Source: Paenibacillus sp. PK3_47 (GTDB lineage: Bacteria > Bacillota > Bacilli > Paenibacillales > Paenibacillaceae). From it: DNA of 64,000 nucleotides. The first letter of the stretch is position 1; every line of letters starts with the position of its first letter. Below are positions 51,269 to 61,968 of the stretch, in pieces. The stretch covers positions 3,968,001 through 4,032,000 of the forward strand of contig NZ_CP026029.1 in the NCBI RefSeq assembly GCF_023520895.1, given 5' to 3'. Made by a program: the position numbers and the translations under genes. The notes under the pieces were generated by a model. It worked only from the letters and a program-made list of their open reading frames with translations. It was not told where the DNA came from and did not search any database.

Positions 51269-51297
51269 TTGATACGGGCACTTATATATGCTACTAT
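51269..51297 (+). promoter_or_regulatory. Promoter of the Tad operon
   Basis: TTGATA (51269-51274), 17 bases, TACTAT (51292-51297). Start expected near 51304, about 20 bases before the leader hairpin. Confidence 0.6.
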
Positions 51298-51325
51298 AGC
51301 TGTAAATTATAGGAATTGTGACGGA

Positions 51326-51372
51326 AGCACCGTTCATTGACCGTATTTCACGGTTTTTGACGGTGCTTTTTT
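51326..51372 (+). terminator. Leader terminator/attenuator before the Tad operon
   Basis: AGCACCGT (51326-51333) pairs with ACGGTGCT (51360-51367), with an inner stem ACCGT/ACGGT (51340-51344/51350-51354), followed by T. An alternative hairpin ACGG (51321-51324)/CCGT (51330-51333) competes with the outer stem. It lies between the promoter and the first gene. Confidence 0.65.
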
Positions 51373-51415: not shown

Positions 51416-52588
51416 ATGGCGGCAAGGATCGTGCTTGCAGTGCGGGAGAGTCAATATATAGGACCCTTACTGCATTACGTGCATCACAGCAATTATGGGG
51501 CACTGCTGCGGGTGACGGCTTTTAGCCGGCTGGATACGTTCATGGAATTTATGAAAGGCGAAGAAGTGCCGGATGCGGTTGTAGGCGATCCCGCTTTCAT
51601 AGAGGCATGGCTGCTGGAAGGGAAGAATGCAGCTCCGTGGGCGCTCCTGAATGAAGACGGGAAATATTCAGGCAGAATTACCGGCAGCCTGGCCGGAGGT
51701 ACAGTGATTGACAAATATCAGGCGCTGCCGTCACTTCTGGAGTCGATCCTTCAGCTGTGTGATGTGAAACGGAGTAAGACCTCTATCGCAGCCAAGGAAG
51801 CGACGCTACTGCTGGGAGTGGTCTCTGCGAACGGCAGCAGCGGTAAAACAACAGTCGCGCTTAATCTGGCTAAACAGCTGGGGGGCATGGGTTTATCTGT
51901 GTTTTATCTCAACCTGGAAAGTGTGGACAGCAGCGGGCTGTACCTGAGGCTGCCGTCCGGTGGTGCCCATGGACTGGAGCGCTTGCTGTACGAACTCAAA
52001 GCTCAAAGGGAGGAGGAGGGGAAAGACAATGCGCAGAAGCTGCAGCCGGGGAGGTATTGTGTCCGGAACGACAGTGTTCGCAGCGATGTATTCAGGCCGG
52101 TAGAGAACCTGAAGGAAATGCTGCAGATGACCCAGCAGGATGCAGCGGATTTGCTGGAGCTGCTGGGCAATGATGAACGCTATGATGCTGTCATCGTGGA
52201 TACAGGCAGTCTTGAAGAAGAGCGGGCAAAGGCCGTGCTGCAGCACTGCGGCATGGTGTTATGGGTGCTGAGAAATGATGAGACAAGCATGGTTAAGACA
52301 TCCAGGTGGCTTGAATACTTTGGCAGTCCGCATTCCGGGCTTCAGGAGGATATAGGGGGCAAGAGCCGGTTTGTGCTTAATTTTGCAGAGGAGCCGGCTA
52401 TGAATCATAAGCCTGTTCCCCAAGGAATACGCCTGGATGGAATGCTTCCTTTTATCCCTTCCTGGGGACTCCACCATGGGGAGCTTTGCCTGAACTCACC
52501 GCAATTTCTGGAAGGTATACAGCAGCTCTGCAGGGGAATTATTGAGCCGGCCCTGCCGCGGGTATTTACCGGCAGCCTGTATGAATGA
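51416..52588 (+). CDS. CpaE/TadZ-like pilus localisation ATPase
   Basis: 390 residues. A receiver-like N-terminal region (~1-115) lacks a clear phosphorylatable Asp; the ParA/MinD-type P-loop is SANGSSGKTTV (~137-147). It lacks the signature lysine of KGGxGKT, which may affect dimerisation. The Walker B region is DAVIVDTGSL. TadZ proteins position the pilus machine at the cell envelope. AAGGGAGTGG lies 5 bases before ATG 51416; the frame is open from 51371. First gene of the ten-gene operon; it overlaps tadA by 8 bases. Confidence 0.85.
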   Translation: MAARIVLAVRESQYIGPLLHYVHHSNYGALLRVTAFSRLDTFMEFMKGEEVPDAVVGDPAFIEAWLLEGKNAAPWALLNEDGKYSGRITGSLAGGTVIDKYQALPSLLESILQLCDVKRSKTSIAAKEATLLLGVVSANGSSGKTTVALNLAKQLGGMGLSVFYLNLESVDSSGLYLRLPSGGAHGLERLLYELKAQREEEGKDNAQKLQPGRYCVRNDSVRSDVFRPVENLKEMLQMTQQDAADLLELLGNDERYDAVIVDTGSLEEERAKAVLQHCGMVLWVLRNDETSMVKTSRWLEYFGSPHSGLQEDIGGKSRFVLNFAEEPAMNHKPVPQGIRLDGMLPFIPSWGLHHGELCLNSPQFLEGIQQLCRGIIEPALPRVFTGSLYE

Positions 52589-53849
52589 GGAGATGTTCAG
52601 GAAGCTGCGCAGTGAGATCCGGGCCGGACTGGATGTAACTTCCGCAGTCGGGAACCGGGAGCTTGCTTCCTATATTGAACGCGTGATTCTGGAAATGGAC
52701 AGTCTGCGGTATTTGACGGCCCAGGAGAAGCACGCACTGATCAAAAAGCTGTTCGATTCCTTCCGGGGGCTGGACGTGCTGCAGCCGCTGGTGGATAACC
52801 CGAACATCACAGAGATTATGATCAACAGCCATGAGGAGATTTTTGTGGAAGAAGACGGGGCGATCCGCCGTCTTCCGCTGGCCTTTGAGTCCCGAAGCAG
52901 GCTGGAGGATATCATTCAGACGGTGGTGTCCGGGGTGAACCGGGTGGTGAATGATTCCACGCCGATTGTGGATGCGCGGCTCAGGGACGGCTCACGTGTC
53001 AATATTGTGCTCCCGCCGGTTGCGCTTAAGGGACCGGCGATGACAATCCGCAAATTTCCGGAGACGCCGATGACCATGAGCGAGCTGGTGAGGCGGGAGG
53101 CTATAAGCGGGGAGGCGGCTGAGCTGCTGAAGATTCTGGTGGCCGCCAAGTATAACATTTTTATCAGCGGAGGTACCGGTTCAGGCAAGACTACCTTCCT
53201 CAATGCCCTGTCGCAGTTTATTCCGCCGCAGGAACGGGTGATTACAGTAGAGGATTCAGCGGAGCTGCAGATCGTCACCGTGCCGAATCTGGTCTCGCTG
53301 GAGACCAGAAATGCGAACACGGAAGGCCGGGGCGAGATCAGCATCCGTGATCTGATCCGGTCATCGCTGCGGATGCGCCCGAACCGGATTGTGGTCGGTG
53401 AGGTCCGGGGAGCGGAATGTCTGGACATGCTCCAGGCGATGAATACAGGCCATGACGGTTCGCTTAGTTCAGGCCATTCAAACAGCGCACAGGATATGCT
53501 CAGCCGCCTGGAGACGATGGTGCTCAGCGCAGCCGAGCTGCCGGTAGCAGTGGTCCGCCAGCAGATCGGCTCAGCGATAGACATCTTCGTGCATTTGTCC
53601 CGGCTGAGGGACCGTTCACGCCGGGTGATGGAGATCAGCGAGGTTGCCGGGCTGCGGGACGGGGAGGTTGTACTGAATCCTTTATATGAGTTCCGGGAAA
53701 CGGGAGAGTACGAAGGAAAGGTGCAGGGGGGACTTGTTCCGTGCGGAAATCCTCTGCTGCACAGCGGGAAGCTGAAGATGGCCGGATTAACGGACTATCC
53801 GCTGGCCTGCTACAGCGGCAGACCCGGGCAGAAGGAGGCGGTGTTCTGA
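52581..53849 (+). CDS. tadA: TadA/CpaF pilus assembly ATPase
   Basis: 422 residues. Walker A GGTGSGKTT is at 197-205; Walker B region RIVVGEVRGAECLDMLQAMN and His box TGHDGSLSSGHSN are those of TadA/CpaF, a GspE-type secretion ATPase. The N-terminal domain (~1-170) includes VDNPNITEIMINSHEEIFVE. It powers pilus assembly from the cytoplasm. It starts at ATG 52581 inside the end of the previous gene, so is translationally coupled; ATG 52593 is an alternative. Confidence 0.95.
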   Translation: MNEEMFRKLRSEIRAGLDVTSAVGNRELASYIERVILEMDSLRYLTAQEKHALIKKLFDSFRGLDVLQPLVDNPNITEIMINSHEEIFVEEDGAIRRLPLAFESRSRLEDIIQTVVSGVNRVVNDSTPIVDARLRDGSRVNIVLPPVALKGPAMTIRKFPETPMTMSELVRREAISGEAAELLKILVAAKYNIFISGGTGSGKTTFLNALSQFIPPQERVITVEDSAELQIVTVPNLVSLETRNANTEGRGEISIRDLIRSSLRMRPNRIVVGEVRGAECLDMLQAMNTGHDGSLSSGHSNSAQDMLSRLETMVLSAAELPVAVVRQQIGSAIDIFVHLSRLRDRSRRVMEISEVAGLRDGEVVLNPLYEFRETGEYEGKVQGGLVPCGNPLLHSGKLKMAGLTDYPLACYSGRPGQKEAVF

Positions 53850-54682
53850 TTCAGCTGTTGAAGAAAGCCGGGATGCGAAAGAAGTTACCGGCAGACAAAA
53901 GACGGTCAGAAGGAGAGGCGGGATATTCAGGCCAGGCACAGCTGCCGGACTATACGGTGTACTTACTGGCGCCACTATCCAAAATGCTGGCCAGGCTGGC
54001 AGGCGGGGCAGTACTGCTGGGAATCGGATATCTTTTTTATCATAATCTGCTGCTGTCCCTGCTGCTTGTACCAGGGGGAGCTTATGCCCCGCGGCTGCTT
54101 CGTGACTATCTGCTGCAGCGCCGCCGCTCTGCGCTCAACCTTCAGTTCAAGCAGACCTTGTTCTCCCTGTCTTCCTCGCTGTCCGCCGGAAGATCAGTGG
54201 AGAATGCGTTCCGCGAGGCAGTAGAGGATCTGCGGATGCTCGACCCGGAGGGCGGGAGCGATATGATCTTTGAGCTGAATATCATCTGTGCGCGCATGGA
54301 ATACGGCCAGCCGGTGGAGGAAGCGCTGCATGATTTCAGCAGGCGGGCAGGCATGGAGGATGTGGAGCGGTTCGCGGATGTGTTCTCGGTCTGCAAACGG
54401 ACAGGGGGTGACCTTGTAGAAGTGGTGCGGCGCACCTCTGCTGTTATTGGCGAGAAGCTAGACATCCAGCAGGATATTGCCGTCAGCATCGCCCAGAAGA
54501 AATTTGAGGCCAAGGCGTTGCTTGTGTCCCCGCTGGGAATGGTGCTGTTCATGAGTCTGGCGGCAGGGGACTACATGGCGCCAATGTATACCGGCGCTGG
54601 AATGGTAATTTCCACTCTGGCACTGGCGGGATTGTTTCTCTGTTATCTCTGGACTGTGAAGATTATGGACATTCCGCTGTAA
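53846..54682 (+). CDS. tadB: TadB pilus assembly inner-membrane protein
   Basis: About 278 residues. Membrane spans near the N-terminus (LAPLSKMLARLAGGAVLLGI, LLLSLLLVPGGAYAPRLLRD) and at the C-terminus flank a GspF-like T2SS_F domain (KQTLFSLSSSLSAGRSVENA, EDVERFADVFSVCKRTGGDL). TadB and TadC form the platform under the pilus. AAGGAGG at 53832-53838 lies within the tadA end, and the codon at the right distance is CTG 53846; TTG 53858 and ATG 53873 are the next starts. The start is thus uncertain and may be non-standard. Confidence 0.88.
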   Translation: MIQLLKKAGMRKKLPADKRRSEGEAGYSGQAQLPDYTVYLLAPLSKMLARLAGGAVLLGIGYLFYHNLLLSLLLVPGGAYAPRLLRDYLLQRRRSALNLQFKQTLFSLSSSLSAGRSVENAFREAVEDLRMLDPEGGSDMIFELNIICARMEYGQPVEEALHDFSRRAGMEDVERFADVFSVCKRTGGDLVEVVRRTSAVIGEKLDIQQDIAVSIAQKKFEAKALLVSPLGMVLFMSLAAGDYMAPMYTGAGMVISTLALAGLFLCYLWTVKIMDIPL

Positions 54683-54695
54683 AGGAGGTGAGAAG

Positions 54696-55568
54696 GTGCG
54701 GTGGTTATGCATATCCGTGCTCGTGGCATGTACATCCTGCTGGGTGCTGCTATATTTCAAAAGCGGCAGCCGTTATGCAGGTCTGCGGCGGCTGCCAATG
54801 GAAGGGCTGCGGCTGCGCAGACTTGGTGAACCCTTCTTACTGGCCATCGAGAAAGGGAAGCTCAGCGTTTATATCCCCGCCGTCATGTTCAGGATTCAGC
54901 GGTCGCTGCAGCACAGGTACGGGATGCGGCATAGTGCAGAACGGACGCTGCTGTTCATAGGGGAGCTGTTCAGCTACAGCTGGCTGTCCGCAGCCGGCGG
55001 AAGCGTGCTGACACTGCTCAGCGGGGAGAGGGCCGGTGTTTTCCTGGGCGGATTTATGGCTGCGGTGCTTCCGGTTGCGCTCGTGAGAGACCTGCATCAA
55101 AAAGTGAAGCTGCGGGAGCAGAGCATTCTGCTGGAGCTCCCGGAGCTGCTGAACAGCATTGTCCTGCTCGTAGGCGCCGGTGAGAATGTGCAGCGGGCGA
55201 TTATCCGCTGTATTGACAGCCGCAAGGGAGATTTCAGCCATCCGCTGTACAAAGAGCTGTCCCTGATGACGGGGGAATGGGACAGCGGTTACTCATTCCA
55301 GCAGGCATTCGAGAATTTCAGCAAGCGCTGTGCAGTGCAGGAGGTGTCGCTGTTTACGACTACGGTGCTGCTTAATTACCGCAGGGGAGGAAATGATTTT
55401 GTCTTGTCGCTGCGGGATCTTTCGCGGATGCTCTGGGAGAAGCGGAAGGCGATCAGCCGTACACGCGGAGAGCAGGCTTCATCCAAATTAGTGTTTCCGA
55501 TGGTGGTAATCTTTTTAATTGTAATCGTTCTGGTTGGGTCACCGGCGTTGATGATGCTGAAAATGTAG
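54696..55568 (+). CDS. tadC: TadC pilus assembly inner-membrane protein
   Basis: 290 residues. N-terminal span (~3-22), two spans near 85-130, a GspF-like domain (ELPELLNSIVLLVGAGENVQ, ENFSKRCAVQEVSLFTTTVL) and a C-terminal span. Partner of TadB. GTG 54696 follows AAAGGAGGTGAG. Only 13 bases after tadB. Confidence 0.92.
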   Translation: MRWLCISVLVACTSCWVLLYFKSGSRYAGLRRLPMEGLRLRRLGEPFLLAIEKGKLSVYIPAVMFRIQRSLQHRYGMRHSAERTLLFIGELFSYSWLSAAGGSVLTLLSGERAGVFLGGFMAAVLPVALVRDLHQKVKLREQSILLELPELLNSIVLLVGAGENVQRAIIRCIDSRKGDFSHPLYKELSLMTGEWDSGYSFQQAFENFSKRCAVQEVSLFTTTVLLNYRRGGNDFVLSLRDLSRMLWEKRKAISRTRGEQASSKLVFPMVVIFLIVIVLVGSPALMMLKM

Positions 55569-55581
55569 GAGGAGGAAGAAC

Positions 55582-55770
55582 ATGATAACAGTGCTGACTG
55601 AAGGCGCAAAGAGCTTGTGGAAGGAAGAAGAGGGCCTGGGTACGCTGGAGATGATCATGATTATTGCGGTGCTGATTGCTGTGGTGCTGCTGTTTAAAGA
55701 CAAGATTCAGGATGTGGTTGAAGCGCTGATCAAAACAGCCGGTGAAAAAAGCCAGGAAGTATTTGAGTGA
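55582..55770 (+). CDS. Flp-like small pilin
   Basis: 62 residues. The prepilin site EEG-LGTLE gives Glu at +5 and is followed by a hydrophobic segment MIMIIAVLIAVVLLF, then a short amphipathic tail. This is the likely major pilin, cut by the prepilin peptidase encoded at 59791. AGGAGGAGG precedes the ATG. The next gene overlaps its stop by 4 bases. Confidence 0.88.
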   Translation: MITVLTEGAKSLWKEEEGLGTLEMIMIIAVLIAVVLLFKDKIQDVVEALIKTAGEKSQEVFE

Positions 55771-56429
55771 TAAGACTCGGGGACGACGAAGGCAGCTTTA
55801 CTGTAGAAGCATCCATGCTGCTGCCCGTCATTGTGGGGATTACGATGCTACTGCTCTTTTTCTGCCTCTACAGTTATCAGAAGTCCATGCTGCTGCAGAT
55901 CGCTTCAGTATCAACGGAGCGGGCCGCGTTCAACTGGGACAACAGCCGTAAATCAGCAGATGGTTCCTTTGCTGCAGGTGAATATGACTCACTGTATTGG
56001 CGGATCGGGGAGGACAACCTGCTGTCTTCCTTATTTGGGGGAGGCACAGGGGCCGGTGCCGTCACATTAGAACTTCCTGGGGAAGCTAAAGCCGGGGGAG
56101 CACTGCCTGTAATAAAGCTGCAGCAGTCTGCCGCGGTTGTTCCGGCTAACCTGACGGGGGAGATGCAGTATGCTTATGCACTTGCCGGACGGAAAGTAAG
56201 CGCCGAACTTAAGCATGTTCTCAATCTTCCGGTGCTGGATGGTCTGTTGGAGGATGGGGCCGATCCGAAAGTCACAGCCCGCTCTGTGGTGACTGAACCA
56301 GCCGAGTTCATAAGAACGGTGGACCTGATGCGTTATTACGGAGCCAAGTTCAAGGAAGCCGGGAACAGCAAATCCGGTACAGCCATGGATAAGCAAGACG
56401 CGTCCGCCATGATGTCTAAGCTGCGTTGA
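55767..56429 (+). CDS. TadE-like pseudopilin
   Basis: 220 residues from GTG 55767, overlapping the previous stop (GTGA). The prepilin motif is DDEG-SFTVE with Glu at +5, followed by ASMLLPVIVGITMLLLFFCL. The outside domain (~45-220) has no family beyond TadE-like. It would be a minor pilin that joins or primes the pilus. Confidence 0.85.
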   Translation: MIRLGDDEGSFTVEASMLLPVIVGITMLLLFFCLYSYQKSMLLQIASVSTERAAFNWDNSRKSADGSFAAGEYDSLYWRIGEDNLLSSLFGGGTGAGAVTLELPGEAKAGGALPVIKLQQSAAVVPANLTGEMQYAYALAGRKVSAELKHVLNLPVLDGLLEDGADPKVTARSVVTEPAEFIRTVDLMRYYGAKFKEAGNSKSGTAMDKQDASAMMSKLR

Positions 56430-56471
56430 ATCCTATGAAGATACGGTTAAGTCCGGGGAAGGGAGGTGCAT

Positions 56472-58736
56472 ATGAGGAAGAGTAGGGCTGGCGTTAATTC
56501 CTATAGATGGAAGCTGCAGATACTGAGGCGGAACGCTGGAACGGAAGGATCCGTCTCCATATTTCTGATTATGGTCCTGGCATTTGTATTTCTGTTTACC
56601 TCCGTACTGATTGATTATGCGCGGATTGCTGCAGCAAATGTGCAGGAGGAACGTCTGGCAAGAGCCGCAGTCCGCTCGGTAATGTCTTCTTATGATGTAG
56701 AGCTGCGCGAGAATTACGGTCTGTTCGCTTTTGGAGGTAAAGACGGCACCCAGCTGTTGTCGGTAGTGCTGAACGATAATTTCTATGAGAGCGGGCGGGG
56801 GGATGCCTTCAATCTATTACCGCTAAAGCTGGATTCCTCTGCCTTGAACCTCAGCAGGCCGCTTGGGAGTTACGAGGTTTTCCGCAGGGGGATTATGGAG
56901 GAGATGAAGTATAAGGCGCCTATTGATTTTGCGCTGGAGCTGGCCGGCAAGTTTAAGCCGTTGTCTGCGGCAATGGGGGAAGCCTCACGTTCGACCAAAG
57001 TGCTGGGCAAGCTGCAGCCCTTGTATGACGAACGGGAAGCAGCGCTTGATCAGATGATGCAGAAGCGGAAGGAAGCGGCGGAGAGCGGCAGGGAACTGCA
57101 GAAGCTGATTATGAATCCTCCGGGAAATTTAATAGCTTCAACTGCGCTGGGCGGCATTTCCTCTGCTGCTGATATTGCAGCAATGTACAGCGACTATGTC
57201 GGGAAATATTATGCCGATCTGTACCGGGACAAGAAGAAGGAATATGCAAGATATACTACTGAAATCAACCGTTATCTCAATCAGACGGGAGAACTGATTC
57301 CCAAGATTCCCAGGGCATTGTCTGAATTCCTTGCGAAGCATGCGAAGCTTATGGCGGAAGCCGGATCAGCGCTGCGGAAGGCAGCAGAACTGAATGAGCA
57401 GATGGGAACCATTCTGGAGCAGTCCCGGAGTAGCGGGGCTGAGAATGCACAGTATGCGGCCCAAGATTGGGATATCCCGGGAAGCGGTGGAGAGCTTAGT
57501 GCAGAGGCGCTTAGAAGGCTGCGTGAACAGGAAGAAGCCTTGATTATTGGAGCAGCGGAATTCAGTACCATGGAGAGTAATATTTCTGCACAGGAGTTAT
57601 CTTTCCGCTCAGTGGAGCCTGCAGTGTCGGGATTGCCGGGCGTGCTGAATCAGGCGGGAGGACTGAATGCAGATACAACCCTTCTGAACACCTCGGTTCT
57701 GACAGCTTCACAGGCGGTAAACGGCTATCTGCTTAATTACGGGAATGGCGGCGGCATGACTTCTGCCCAGACCGCGCAGATTGAAAATCACCGTACTTCG
57801 GATGCAGAGCGCAAGGGGATGGAACAGCAGGCCAAAACCAGGCTGGGGGATGCCATGAGGCTGCTGGACCAGCTTCGTACACTGGGGAACAGCGCCTCCG
57901 CGGCCACGGAACGCTATGGGCTGCTCCGCCAATACAGCAGTGAAATCAGCAGCTTCAATAACGGAATGGATGACGGGATGCCTGTTAATGGAGGGAGTAC
58001 AACAGATCCCTATAGTGCCGGAAGCTTATCGATGGATAAGGTCGATGGATTATACAGGGCAATCGGCAGCATTCTGGAGGGAGCGAGGGACAGGCTGTAT
58101 CAGACCGAATATTCGGCACAATATTTTCCGCATTTTGAGGTTTCGCAGCTGACTCCGCTGGTAACCGGCCCGGTTAGTGATTATGCCGAAGCTCTTGCAG
58201 CCTCGCTTGATCCGCATGCCCAGGAGCTCGAATATGTCCTGTACGGTTTTCATAACTCTGGAGGAAATTTGGCTGCGGCATATGGCGAGATCTTTGCGCT
58301 GAGGCTGGCTGTCCGCACCATGGAGGGGCTGACCGAGAGCGCCCGCTACAGCAATCCGCTGGCGGTTCTGGCAGCTGCACTGCTGTACGGTGTCCGGAAT
58401 GCTGTTCAGGATATGCTGCAACTATGTAAAACAGGAGAGATTCCGCTATCCAAATATCTGGATGTGAATTTGAGCTACCGTGATTATCTGCGGCTCTTCA
58501 TGCTGCTGCATGGAGCAGGGGAGGGGCAGCTGTCCCGCATGCTAGCCTTGATCCGGCTCAACACAGGAATTAATCCGCTGGAGAAGTATACCTATGCCTC
58601 ATCCGAAATCCGGATGGGCTTGCGGCTCTGGTTTCTGCCGGGAGTAGTCAAGCTGCTGGATTATACTGCCGGTCTCCCCGGCGATGTACAGGATAAGGTG
58701 TATTACAGAACGGTGAAAGCAGATTATTCCTATTAG
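56472..58736 (+). CDS. Giant TadG-like pseudopilin lacking Glu+5
   Basis: 754 residues from ATG 56472 (AAGGGAGGTG upstream). The N-terminus has the prepilin pattern GTEG-SVSIF then LIMVLAFVFLFTSVLI, but position +5 is Phe, not Glu. A very large extracellular region follows with long helical, partly coiled-coil stretches (AEAGSALRKAAELNEQMGTI; MLDQ.. and AMRLLDQLRTLGNSASAATE). In type II secretion the large tip pseudopilin GspK also lacks Glu+5, so a tip or adhesin role is an attractive inference. No known enzyme domain seen. Confidence 0.82.
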   Translation: MRKSRAGVNSYRWKLQILRRNAGTEGSVSIFLIMVLAFVFLFTSVLIDYARIAAANVQEERLARAAVRSVMSSYDVELRENYGLFAFGGKDGTQLLSVVLNDNFYESGRGDAFNLLPLKLDSSALNLSRPLGSYEVFRRGIMEEMKYKAPIDFALELAGKFKPLSAAMGEASRSTKVLGKLQPLYDEREAALDQMMQKRKEAAESGRELQKLIMNPPGNLIASTALGGISSAADIAAMYSDYVGKYYADLYRDKKKEYARYTTEINRYLNQTGELIPKIPRALSEFLAKHAKLMAEAGSALRKAAELNEQMGTILEQSRSSGAENAQYAAQDWDIPGSGGELSAEALRRLREQEEALIIGAAEFSTMESNISAQELSFRSVEPAVSGLPGVLNQAGGLNADTTLLNTSVLTASQAVNGYLLNYGNGGGMTSAQTAQIENHRTSDAERKGMEQQAKTRLGDAMRLLDQLRTLGNSASAATERYGLLRQYSSEISSFNNGMDDGMPVNGGSTTDPYSAGSLSMDKVDGLYRAIGSILEGARDRLYQTEYSAQYFPHFEVSQLTPLVTGPVSDYAEALAASLDPHAQELEYVLYGFHNSGGNLAAAYGEIFALRLAVRTMEGLTESARYSNPLAVLAAALLYGVRNAVQDMLQLCKTGEIPLSKYLDVNLSYRDYLRLFMLLHGAGEGQLSRMLALIRLNTGINPLEKYTYASSEIRMGLRLWFLPGVVKLLDYTAGLPGDVQDKVYYRTVKADYSY

Positions 58737-58748
58737 CGGAGGTGGGAG

Positions 58749-59771
58749 ATGAAGCGCTGTGCTGACATGCCAAGAGGCCATAGGGAAGAAGGCAGCATGG
58801 TTGTAGAGGCGGCTATGGTTCTCCCGGTGTATCTGCTGTTTGTCCTGTTTCTGATCTTTATGGTCCAGATGACCTTGTACTCAACAGCCTTGCAGAGCAC
58901 CGCTTCTGACACGGTAAAGGTCATCTCGGCCCATATGTATCCTGCGGCTTTGGCTGCACAGCAGTGGGGTGGGGGCAGTATGGCGGAGGCGCCACCAGGC
59001 GGTAATGGGGCCGGGACCGGAACGGCTAAGGAGGGCGGGGCTAATCATAGCCCGGATACGCCTTCAGGGATCTGGACTATTCCGAGGCTGTCGCTGGAGG
59101 AGTGGAGCACCAGCTATGTGAAGGATCTTCCGGAGCCTGTCGGGGAATGGGTCAAAGCAGCGGAGCAGAAGGGAGAAGGGCCGCTGCAAAAGCTTCAGGC
59201 CGGGACATCAGAGGCTGTGCTGGATCTTGCCCTTAAACCTCTTATGAGGCCTTACCTGTCCTCAGACTGGCTTGATTTTGAGCGTATCCATGTCTCCAAT
59301 GTGACAATACCTGAAATGAAGAAAGGGACCAGGCCGTATTTTGGAATCGTAGTCAGCTACGAGCTGCCGATGAAGGTTCCCTTTCTGAATCAGGCTATTG
59401 TACTGGAGGCTGCTGCAGTAGAACGGTTATGGATTGGGGATACCGGTGAAGAAGGGAAGGATAACGCTGATGGAGGTGAGGCGGAACAGAGCTCTATCAT
59501 CATCCTGGAAAAGCCTGATCCCGGGGTGGCCAACCGGCAGGGAAAGGTAAGGATCAAGGTTCCGCCGAATGCATCTGCGAATCTGGCGGTCTTCTACAAA
59601 ACAGGACAGAGTACAGCTAAATACTTGGGCTGGAAGCAGGCGGATGGCAGCGGTTATATTGAGTGGGAATGGAAGATCGGCGTAAATACCACGCCCGGAT
59701 CATGGCCTCTGGTTATTCAGCTTGCGGATGGAACTACGCTGGAAGCTACGTTTACGGTAGTAAAACGATGA
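58749..59771 (+). CDS. TadE-like pseudopilin with large outer domain
   Basis: 340 residues. Prepilin motif REEG-SMVVE with Glu at +5, then AAMVLPVYLLFVLFLIFMVQ. A Gly/Ala/Pro-rich linker lies at ~75-105 (GGGSMAEAPPGGNGAGTG). The outer C-terminal part (~230-340) looks beta-rich (GKVRIKVPPNASANLAVFYK) and may be an Ig-like domain. GGAGGTGGGAG precedes the ATG. Second minor pilin of the operon. Confidence 0.83.
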   Translation: MKRCADMPRGHREEGSMVVEAAMVLPVYLLFVLFLIFMVQMTLYSTALQSTASDTVKVISAHMYPAALAAQQWGGGSMAEAPPGGNGAGTGTAKEGGANHSPDTPSGIWTIPRLSLEEWSTSYVKDLPEPVGEWVKAAEQKGEGPLQKLQAGTSEAVLDLALKPLMRPYLSSDWLDFERIHVSNVTIPEMKKGTRPYFGIVVSYELPMKVPFLNQAIVLEAAAVERLWIGDTGEEGKDNADGGEAEQSSIIILEKPDPGVANRQGKVRIKVPPNASANLAVFYKTGQSTAKYLGWKQADGSGYIEWEWKIGVNTTPGSWPLVIQLADGTTLEATFTVVKR

Positions 59772-59790
59772 TGAGGAAGAGGCGGTACGT

Positions 59791-60303
59791 ATGGCGGATT
59801 GGGCCTTTTGGGGATGTTCGCTATTCCTGTTGATGGCTTTGATTACAGATACCCGGCGGATGAAGATACCGAACATGATCACACTTCCGGCACTGGTTTC
59901 AGGAATACTTGTACAGATAATGATCAAGGGGCTGGACGGGCTGATATTTGCTGCCTGCGGAGCAGGGACGGGCTTCATATTATTGTTGATTATGTATGTG
60001 ATAGGAGCAGTCGGCGCGGGAGATGTTAAGCTGTTCGCCGGAATCGGAGCCTGGATGGGGTTCATATTCACTTTGCAGGCCATTATGTATTCTATACTGT
60101 TCGGTGCAGTGATCGGTTGGATCATTGTGCTTGGCAAAGGGGAAGCCGGAAACAGACTGCGAAGTATCGCCGGCAGGACCGGAGGATTTCTGCTGCTCCG
60201 CAAGTTCAGTCTGCAGAAGGGGAATAGCGGGACCGGCCTCCTTAGGTTTCCTTTTATGCTGGCTGTTGTGCCCGGATTTATCTGTACATATTTATATTTG
60301 TAG
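59791..60303 (+). CDS. tadV: Prepilin peptidase (TadV/CpaA, A24 family)
   Basis: 170 residues, about six spans. The two catalytic aspartates are in LITDTRRMKIPN (first) and GAVGAGDVKLF (second), the A24 aspartic protease signature. Lacks the N-terminal methylase domain, as usual for TadV. It should process the prepilins encoded upstream. GAGGCGG precedes the ATG. Confidence 0.92.
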   Translation: MADWAFWGCSLFLLMALITDTRRMKIPNMITLPALVSGILVQIMIKGLDGLIFAACGAGTGFILLLIMYVIGAVGAGDVKLFAGIGAWMGFIFTLQAIMYSILFGAVIGWIIVLGKGEAGNRLRSIAGRTGGFLLLRKFSLQKGNSGTGLLRFPFMLAVVPGFICTYLYL

Positions 60304-60318
60304 ATGGGGAGGGAAGCA

Positions 60319-61968
60319 ATGGTGTTCGGACTGAGCCGTGATTTTATCCAGCAGGACGGCATTTCCATGCTGCTGGGCAAACCGGATGGCCTGCCGGCAG
60401 AGGAGCTTAATATGGTGCAGGCCCGCATGCTGATGAACAGCGGCATTCCGTATCATGTACGGCTGCTGCTCAGGGAAATAGATCTGGATGTGACGCTGGA
60501 GTATGCTGTGTCCCGCCGCAGGATGCTCAGCCATCTTCTGAAAAGTGAAAGGCTGACGATGAATGATTTCTTCGGCCTGCTGCTGCAGATTGTTCAGGGG
60601 ATGGAAGAAGGCAGGCTGTATATGCTGCGTCCGGAGCGGTATGCGCTGCATGAGGATTATATTTTTGTTGAAGGGCCGCTCAGCAGCTGCAAGGTGTATC
60701 TGACCTACATTCCGCTGGATTCCGTACCGTCTGAATCAGCAGCCGGGGCAAACATGCGGTTTCTGATTATGGTGCTTATGGCCTCGGTAACAGAGCTTTC
60801 CGGCAACGGGATACAGCGGCTGCTGCAATACTGCGGTAAGGAGGATTTTACTCCGGGAGGATTAAAGGAGCTGCTCTCTGAACTGTTGACCGGAGGAGAC
60901 GGCATCAGAAGAAGTATGGGATCCGGCGATTCCCGCATGGCTGCACCGTTGATTCAAGCAGCACCTCCGGGCACGGGGACAACAGTGCAAGACCAGGACA
61001 GCCCAAGGCTGGTACCGGGACCGCAGGCTCCGCCCCGGGAGCCGCTGCACCGGGAAATCCTCCAGAATGAAATCCCGTGGACAAGGTCCTACCCGAAGCT
61101 GAGGCTAAGGGATGAAGAAGCCCAAAAGGAGCAGAGCAGCACGGCTGATGCAGATGAAGCTGATTCACCGTCTTCTGCCTATCGAACTTATGTAATGCTG
61201 GGAGGTGTTCTGGCAGATGCCTTGCTCTGGAAGTTTCTTTATCTGGATCGTCCGACAACGTTATGGCTGGCAGTCTGTGCGGCAGTGACCTTGATACTGG
61301 CAGTGCTGTGCTTGCTGATCTGGACCGGAAAAATAACTACCGGAAGGGATGGTGAGGAGGAAGAGGCGGATATGGAGGCGGCTATACAGGAGAAGAGAGT
61401 AAAACCGCGCCGTGAGCTGGAATGGGACTTTGGAAAACATGCAATCCAACCGGTCCGGCCGTCTGCAGCGCAAAAAACAGATCAAGTTCCGTCAGCGCCT
61501 GCAGTACCGGGGTTCAGCAATAACCGGGAGCAGCGCTTTCCGGGAGAGAATGGACAAGAGCTGCGTCATACTAACCAGCCGCTGGCTGATGCGGCAACAA
61601 CGCTGCTCCCCCGCGAGGATACATCCGGAATAGAACGGGACGGCCGGCAGGCAGCACGAACAGCGCCGTATCTTGAAAGATGCCAGGATGACGGAAGCGG
61701 TGCAGCTGAGAAAATAGAACTGAACCGTCCCAGCTTCATTATCGGCCGCTCCCCGGAGGTTGCCCAGTATGTAGAGCCGTCTGAAGGAGCATCCAGAGTA
61801 CATGCGGAAATTTCCAAAAGCCATGTCGGTTATATTCTGAAAGATCTGGATTCGAGAAACGGTACCCTGTATGAGGGGGAAGCGATGGTTCCCTACAAGG
61901 AATATCCGCTTACTGAAGGGGCTGTATTCACGATTGTAAAAGGGTGTTATACCTTCCGCTCCGCCTGA
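60319..61968 (+). CDS. FHA-domain membrane protein of the Tad operon
   Basis: 549 residues from ATG 60319 (GGGGAGGG 5 bases upstream; ATG 60304 precedes that site). The N-terminal ~200 residues are a conserved cytoplasmic domain (DUF6382-like). A Gln/Pro-rich linker follows, then two membrane spans (~300-345), another acidic linker and a C-terminal FHA domain (~455-545) with the hallmark FIIGRS, SRVHAEI and DLDSRNGT residues for phosphothreonine binding. It probably regulates pilus assembly in response to a Ser/Thr kinase; none is encoded here. Confidence 0.85.
   Translation: MVFGLSRDFIQQDGISMLLGKPDGLPAEELNMVQARMLMNSGIPYHVRLLLREIDLDVTLEYAVSRRRMLSHLLKSERLTMNDFFGLLLQIVQGMEEGRLYMLRPERYALHEDYIFVEGPLSSCKVYLTYIPLDSVPSESAAGANMRFLIMVLMASVTELSGNGIQRLLQYCGKEDFTPGGLKELLSELLTGGDGIRRSMGSGDSRMAAPLIQAAPPGTGTTVQDQDSPRLVPGPQAPPREPLHREILQNEIPWTRSYPKLRLRDEEAQKEQSSTADADEADSPSSAYRTYVMLGGVLADALLWKFLYLDRPTTLWLAVCAAVTLILAVLCLLIWTGKITTGRDGEEEEADMEAAIQEKRVKPRRELEWDFGKHAIQPVRPSAAQKTDQVPSAPAVPGFSNNREQRFPGENGQELRHTNQPLADAATTLLPREDTSGIERDGRQAARTAPYLERCQDDGSGAAEKIELNRPSFIIGRSPEVAQYVEPSEGASRVHAEISKSHVGYILKDLDSRNGTLYEGEAMVPYKEYPLTEGAVFTIVKGCYTFRSA

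Follow-up and report, generated by a model that had tools for sequence, protein, structure and literature searches.

A conserved Tad pilus operon of Paenibacillus with a giant, probable minor pilin lacking Glu5 and a putative leader RNA shared with DNA-handling genes

Tip complexes are described as capped by a subunit lacking Glu5, since the N-terminus of a pilin placed above such a subunit cannot be neutralised (PMC10191384, PMC9934059), and a Glu5-less subunit at the tip is the rule known for GspK and PilK (PMC9934059, PMC10191384). For Tad pili, TadG-type proteins have been modelled as both the backbone and the tip of TadE/F/G complexes (PMC12075869). The motif of the TadG-type protein CpaL has been given as G/A-X4-F/E, so Phe at +5 in TadG-type pilins is already on record and is not new here (PMC12607857). 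Transformation of Micrococcus luteus depends on Tad genes (PMC4322843), as does DNA uptake by Liberibacter (PMC8513845), and in P. polymyxa, which has no comGB or comGC, a Flp pilus was earlier suggested by analogy as the competence pilus (PMC8370563). Here we describe a Tad operon in a window of 64,000 nucleotides (G000:C1:3968001-4032000) of the single-contig, 6.81-Mb genome of the soil bacterium Paenibacillus sp. PK3_47. The operon encodes a 754-residue probable minor pilin with Phe in place of Glu5 and is preceded by a putative RNA switch that also stands before several nucleic-acid genes.

Ten co-directional open reading frames (ORFs) at positions 51416-61968 of the forward strand were identified with Pfam and NCBIfam profiles (Table 1). 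They encode, in order, a TadZ/CpaE-like protein, TadA, TadB, TadC, a Flp1-like pilin, TadE-a, the 754-residue protein (DUF5702, hereafter the giant pilin), TadE-b, an A24 prepilin peptidase and a DUF6382+FHA protein. The set thus holds a TadA-type ATPase with two single-domain platform proteins, and a Flp-type major pilin, TadE-type minor pilins and an A24 peptidase, as expected of a Tad (type IVc) system. The synteny tadZ-tadA-tadB-tadC-flp-tadE-giant-tadE-tadV-FHA was found in nearly all of 40 order-level loci from 12 families. A search of the whole genome with the secretin profile (PF00263) gave no match, while the same search was positive in 6 of 14 control genomes. Secretin/RcpA belongs to the diderm versions of Tad only and is not expected in a monoderm. 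These ten genes form a complete monoderm Tad pilus operon, and throughout the order it is conserved with every gene in its place. The initial annotation, made from this stretch alone, had proposed both a ten-gene Gram-positive Tad operon and the absence of secretin genes; the first is borne out by domain profiles and synteny for all ten ORFs, and the second now extends to the entire genome.

The giant pilin has a leader of 26 aa and differs from the other three prepilins at the fifth mature residue. The cleavage motifs read from the sequence are G↓LGTLE in Flp, G↓SFTVE in TadE-a, G↓SMVVE in TadE-b and G↓SVSIF in the giant pilin, confirming the earlier observation of Glu+5 in three prepilins and Phe in the 754-residue one. 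The initial annotation had named orthologues with Glu+5 as a finding that would overturn its reading, and none came to light. In 70 orthologues from 12 families the +5 residue was Phe in 41, Tyr in 24, Met in 2, Leu in 2 and Ser in 1, and was never acidic (E/D 0/70), and 69 of them retained Gly at -1 behind a charged leader. In the order-level neighbours, an acidic +5 was present in 27/27 Flp, 39/39 TadE-a and 38/38 TadE-b scorable proteins, counts that favour these three proteins in that the E/D site was preferred among several candidate sites. At 80 family-level loci the giant pilin had Phe in 79 (one of these scored by eye) and Tyr in one, with no acidic residue (0/80); E/D at +5 was found at family level in 77/77 Flp, 79/79 TadE-a and 80/81 TadE-b proteins. 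An aromatic or aliphatic +5 also occurs in distant Bacillota homologues of the giant pilin, and in related genomes the proteins with PF13400, the TadG-type N-terminal profile, likewise lack Glu+5. Loss of Glu+5 in the giant pilin is an old, fixed trait of its family. Taken together, the facts on the operon and on Glu5 are in our view practically certain. At the other end of the protein, 79 of 80 orthologues end in Tyr (residue 754 of the giant pilin), and the distant Bacillota homologues repeatedly have Tyr at or close to the C-terminus.

The giant pilin belongs to a known, apparently TadG-like family and is neither rare nor confined to this genome. It scores 28.2 bits against DUF5702 (PF18960), above the cut-off of 26; DUF5702 is a family of unknown function, and the literature searched yielded no mention of it. 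When aligned members of the giant family were compared with both profiles, 18/20 matched DUF5702 and 4/20 matched PF13400, both at E≤1. A PF18960 search of the whole genome returned nothing at E≤0.001, an effect of database size, the single-protein match being above the cut-off. Profile-profile alignment of the giant family with PF13400 (hhalign) gave an E-value of 2.8e-4 at a probability of only 41%, with the helix and the Gly aligned. An AlphaFold (AF2) model from 70 sequences (predicted local distance difference test, pLDDT, 78.9; predicted template-modelling score, pTM, 0.66) has a helix at 25-72 (alpha1), a strand at 118-130, a long helical region, and strands at 706-718, 738-740 and 743-753. 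This predicted arrangement would correspond to a pilin fold with a large helical insertion, the sheet being taken from the secondary-structure spans and not from coordinates. Foldseek returned no PDB hit at E≤0.001; the top rows were membrane transporters with a TM-score of about 0.1 and were rejected as unrelated. Coiled-coil matches from a PDB sequence search covered only the helical middle and were set aside as composition. In the phylum-wide search many weak hits at 160-400 were coiled-coil noise, and only N- or C-terminal hits were counted.

The closest relative of the giant pilin appears to be TadG rather than GspK. Like TadG, CpaL and KilN, it is large, is encoded with TadE-type pilins, carries a Gly motif without Glu+5 and has a pilin-like helix followed by strands. 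Unlike them it has no vWA domain, its added domain is a helical insertion, and the PF13400 cut-off is reached only by some orthologues (those of G014 and G062, not the window's own protein). With GspK and PilK it shares the absence of Glu5, large size and, as predicted, a helical domain inserted in the pilin fold; these proteins belong to another secretion system, show no sequence, Pfam or Foldseek match to it and are analogues only. By this analogy, GspK-like capping appears to be the best reading, and we consider the giant pilin a probable tip-cap minor pilin: without Glu5 it would lie on top of the tip, because it could not neutralise the N-terminus of the next subunit up. The GspK-like cap put forward in the initial annotation thus holds in part. 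The fixed loss of Glu+5, the intact operon with TadE partners and the published tip rule speak for it; the nearer kinship appears to be with TadG, and Phe+5 was known. In the assembly we envisage, the A24 peptidase would cleave Flp, TadE-a, TadE-b and the giant pilin after the conserved Gly, and a tip complex of TadE-a, TadE-b and the giant pilin would start the filament. The giant pilin, being Glu5-less, would sit uppermost, its helical insertion forming an exposed head.

TadG has long been classed otherwise, and the giant pilin might be a membrane-anchored assembly or anchoring protein rather than a filament subunit. A 2023 review places TadG in a membrane sub-complex (PMC10191384), the title of Tomich 2006 names Flp1, TadE and TadF alone as TadV substrates, and the C-terminal helical domain of the giant pilin is better conserved than its middle. 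An anchor nonetheless seems improbable to us given the near-universal retention of the Gly at -1 with the charged leader, the predicted pilin-like helix and strands, and the models in which TadG-type proteins form the tip backbone (PMC12075869).

Between a promoter-like site and tadZ lies a leader element of ~50 bases (51320-51372) with the pattern NNGG-AAGCA-CCNN, followed by a terminator that takes GCACCNN into its own 5' arm. We aligned 59 diverse leader elements (alignment A3) and assessed significance against 500 shuffles. The small hairpin paired in 89.5% of cells, against 71.8% after shuffling, and its covariation was 0.462 versus 0.176; the terminator paired in 91.1% of cells with a covariation of 0.387 versus 0.154. 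Neither value was reached in any of the 500 shuffles, and slid structures scored worse than the actual hairpin and terminator. The elements were picked by pattern, so invariant columns are partly so by construction, and the covarying flanking columns lie outside the pattern. In 2.25 Mb, GG preceded 99/99 AAGCACC terminators, and permuted stems or loops gave none in such form; the permuted control was added because a reversed pattern does not control for terminators. The leader thus contains two mutually exclusive covarying structures, one of them a terminator, as is general for attenuators. The median energy of the hairpin alone was -4.4 kcal/mol, and that of the terminator -24.2 kcal/mol; a stabilising factor would be implied, because the hairpin is weak next to the terminator. 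Transcription would start about 20-25 bases before the switch and the nascent leader would by default fold as the terminator, while a factor that stabilised the AAGCA-loop hairpin would block termination and allow the operon to be read.

A simple terminator or a DNA operator, with no RNA-based regulation, is a very unlikely account of these data. The terminator stem is indeed strong, with a median near -24 kcal/mol, but conserved bases beyond it, the GG and its flank, covary with its 5' arm. The half-sites vary between genes with pairing kept, unlike a protein-binding DNA site, and the element is located between promoter and gene. We are highly confident that the leader would act as a real attenuator. 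It resembles protein-dependent antiterminators (ANTAR, LicT-type) and other attenuators in having a small hairpin exclusive with a terminator, within a short leader common to several operons. It differs from these in its 5-base AAGCA loop, GG:CC closing and single hairpin, and in being absent from Rfam. Against Rfam (15) there was no match at gathering score, and the sole hit, mir-2582 (E 3.2), was rejected. An ANTAR target was rejected for want of a second hairpin and an A1-G4 hexaloop, and a DNA uptake sequence was rejected at only about 4 copies per genome. A 13-mer search gave 17 sites in the genome; most of these lay within genes and had no terminator, and single-motif hits were not counted.

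The leader precedes tadZ at 73/74 family-level and 32/35 order-level loci. Its pattern was found in 96 of 101 genomes from the order, against a single hit for the control. All family genomes searched had it (7/7), versus 5/391 other Bacillota genomes (once each); as far as pattern searches tell, it is restricted to the order. Beyond tad, about 80 elements were fetched, hand-picked from listed hits and not exhaustive. The commonest gene behind them encodes an HRDC-domain protein of ~337 aa (37 cases: L336 and 36 further loci), which is a candidate for an RNA-binding protein regulating the regulon it belongs to. There followed a secreted coiled-coil protein (11), comM/YifB (10, the leader-bearing copies coming from four families), an Rpn nuclease (5), comEC (3), and recA, recX, the cpaB of another Tad system and a Ser/Thr kinase (1 each), besides single unclassified genes. 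The CpaB/RcpC gene (L264, G065:C7:1814172) probably belongs to a second Tad operon, and the kinase (L271, G069:C27:10563) has a ParA-like C-terminal part (AAA_31). In the present genome, a covariance model placed the leader before tad, the HRDC, Rpn and coiled-coil genes, and comM, where a weaker copy (E 0.013) lies directly upstream (G000:C1:65733-65808, minus strand, L341). The leader is duplicated in tandem at L040 (3039-3097 and 3249-3307), and second copies occur elsewhere in L046 and L053.

In the order, the switch stands before comM, comEC, recA, recX and further nucleic-acid genes, so production of the pilus most likely goes along with that of DNA-uptake and recombination functions, and DNA is probably what the pilus captures. 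A leader common to tad and DNA genes would offer independent genomic support for a Tad uptake pilus, and we infer such a role tentatively, at somewhat less than an even chance. The Tad competence pilus of Micrococcus luteus is comparable in its monoderm Tad genes and TadG-like proteins and in its requirement, there, for transformation; it differs in having two loci without tadV in them, and no such leader has been described for it. More speculative still is the broader proposal that the undescribed GG-AAGCA-CC antitermination element may serve the Paenibacillus order as a switch for competence, commanding a Tad pilus with a Glu5-less tip that takes up DNA in place of the missing ComG pilus. 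Several observations weigh against DNA uptake. Of comM, comEC and recA, only comM carries the leader in this genome, with the weak score given above, and comEC follows it in only three genomes and recA and recX in one each. YifB is not known to act in transformation in these bacteria. The giant pilin and the TadE proteins are acidic (isoelectric point 5.1-5.5), which does not speak for direct DNA binding, and a separate PilB/PilT-type ATPase pair at G000:C1:2193744-2195768 marks a second type IV pilus locus.

The same pilus with its capping tip pilin could instead serve adhesion or surface sensing, as the initial annotation proposed, the shared leader reporting only a common physiological state. 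Tad pili are classically adhesive, CpaL has been tied to surface sensing (PMC12607857), Tad tips are adaptable (PMC12075869), and the leader also stands before the secreted coiled-coil protein and the cpaB of the second Tad operon. Profile searches of the giant pilin found neither a vWA nor a lectin domain, nor any other linked to adhesion, and the other leader-bearing genes mostly handle DNA, leaving adhesion or sensing rather unlikely in our estimation. As an explanation of the whole, a Tad operon with a Glu5-less giant cap, an RNA switch and probable DNA capture is the best we can offer, and we put it at an even chance.

Table 1. Features of the tad locus, in window coordinates
Feature	Position	Strand	Evidence
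Promoter-like site TTGATA-17-TACTAT, TG before -10	51269..51297	+	-10 region and spacing seen again before tadZ in relatives
Antiterminator-type hairpin GACGG-AAGCA-CCGTT (putative)	51320..51334; stem 51320-51324/51330-51334, loop AAGCA 51325-51329	+	covariation; R1 match E 9.9e-8
Competing intrinsic terminator (putative)	51327..51372; arms 51327-51334, 51359-51366; U-run 51367-51372	+	covariation; fold z -3.84
TadZ/CpaE-like ATPase	51416..52588	+	TIGR03815 E 1.7e-6, below its cut-off; weak CbiA/ParA; synteny
TadA/CpaF extension ATPase	52581..53849 (ATG 52581; longest ORF from 52542)	+	PF00437 E 8e-52, TIGR03819 E 1e-86
TadB platform protein	53741..54682 (ORF; true start uncertain, near 53849-53858)	+	PF00482 E 5e-10
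TadC platform protein	54696..55568	+	PF00482 E 3e-8
Flp1-like major pilin, Glu+5 present	55582..55770	+	PF16982 E 5e-17
TadE-a minor pilin, Glu+5 present	55767..56429	+	PF07811 E 3e-5, above cut-off
Giant 754-aa minor pilin (probable), Phe+5, DUF5702, TadG-like	56472..58736	+	PF18960 E 1.2e-6, above cut-off; 98/101 relatives; AF2 pLDDT 78.9
TadE-b minor pilin, Glu+5 present	58749..59771	+	PF07811 E 1.5e-5, above cut-off
A24 prepilin peptidase (TadV)	59791..60303	+	PF01478 E 6e-18
DUF6382 + FHA domain protein	60304..61968	+	PF19909 E 3e-14, PF00498 E 2e-10

The DUF6382+FHA protein is the constant tenth gene of the operon; reading of phospho-threonine by its FHA domain suggests kinase control of the pilus. 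Some families of the order may have a second Tad cluster, as suggested by PF13400 proteins of ~300 aa at L079-L091, which in some loci adjoin an ORF resembling a prepilin peptidase.

With Glu5 lost for good in one pilin and kept by all its partners, nature has set up a clean experiment on how capping works in type IVc pili, and the capping reading gives DUF5702 a likely role. If the attenuator is as proposed, an order-specific antiterminator that answers to a factor in trans would represent a hitherto unknown regulatory RNA. P. polymyxa lacks the pseudopilus proteins ComGB and ComGC (PMC8370563), which bears on how, and with which pilus, this order takes up DNA. A shared RNA switch defines a regulon that can be tested, and brings the idea of Tad as the uptake pilus within direct experimental reach.

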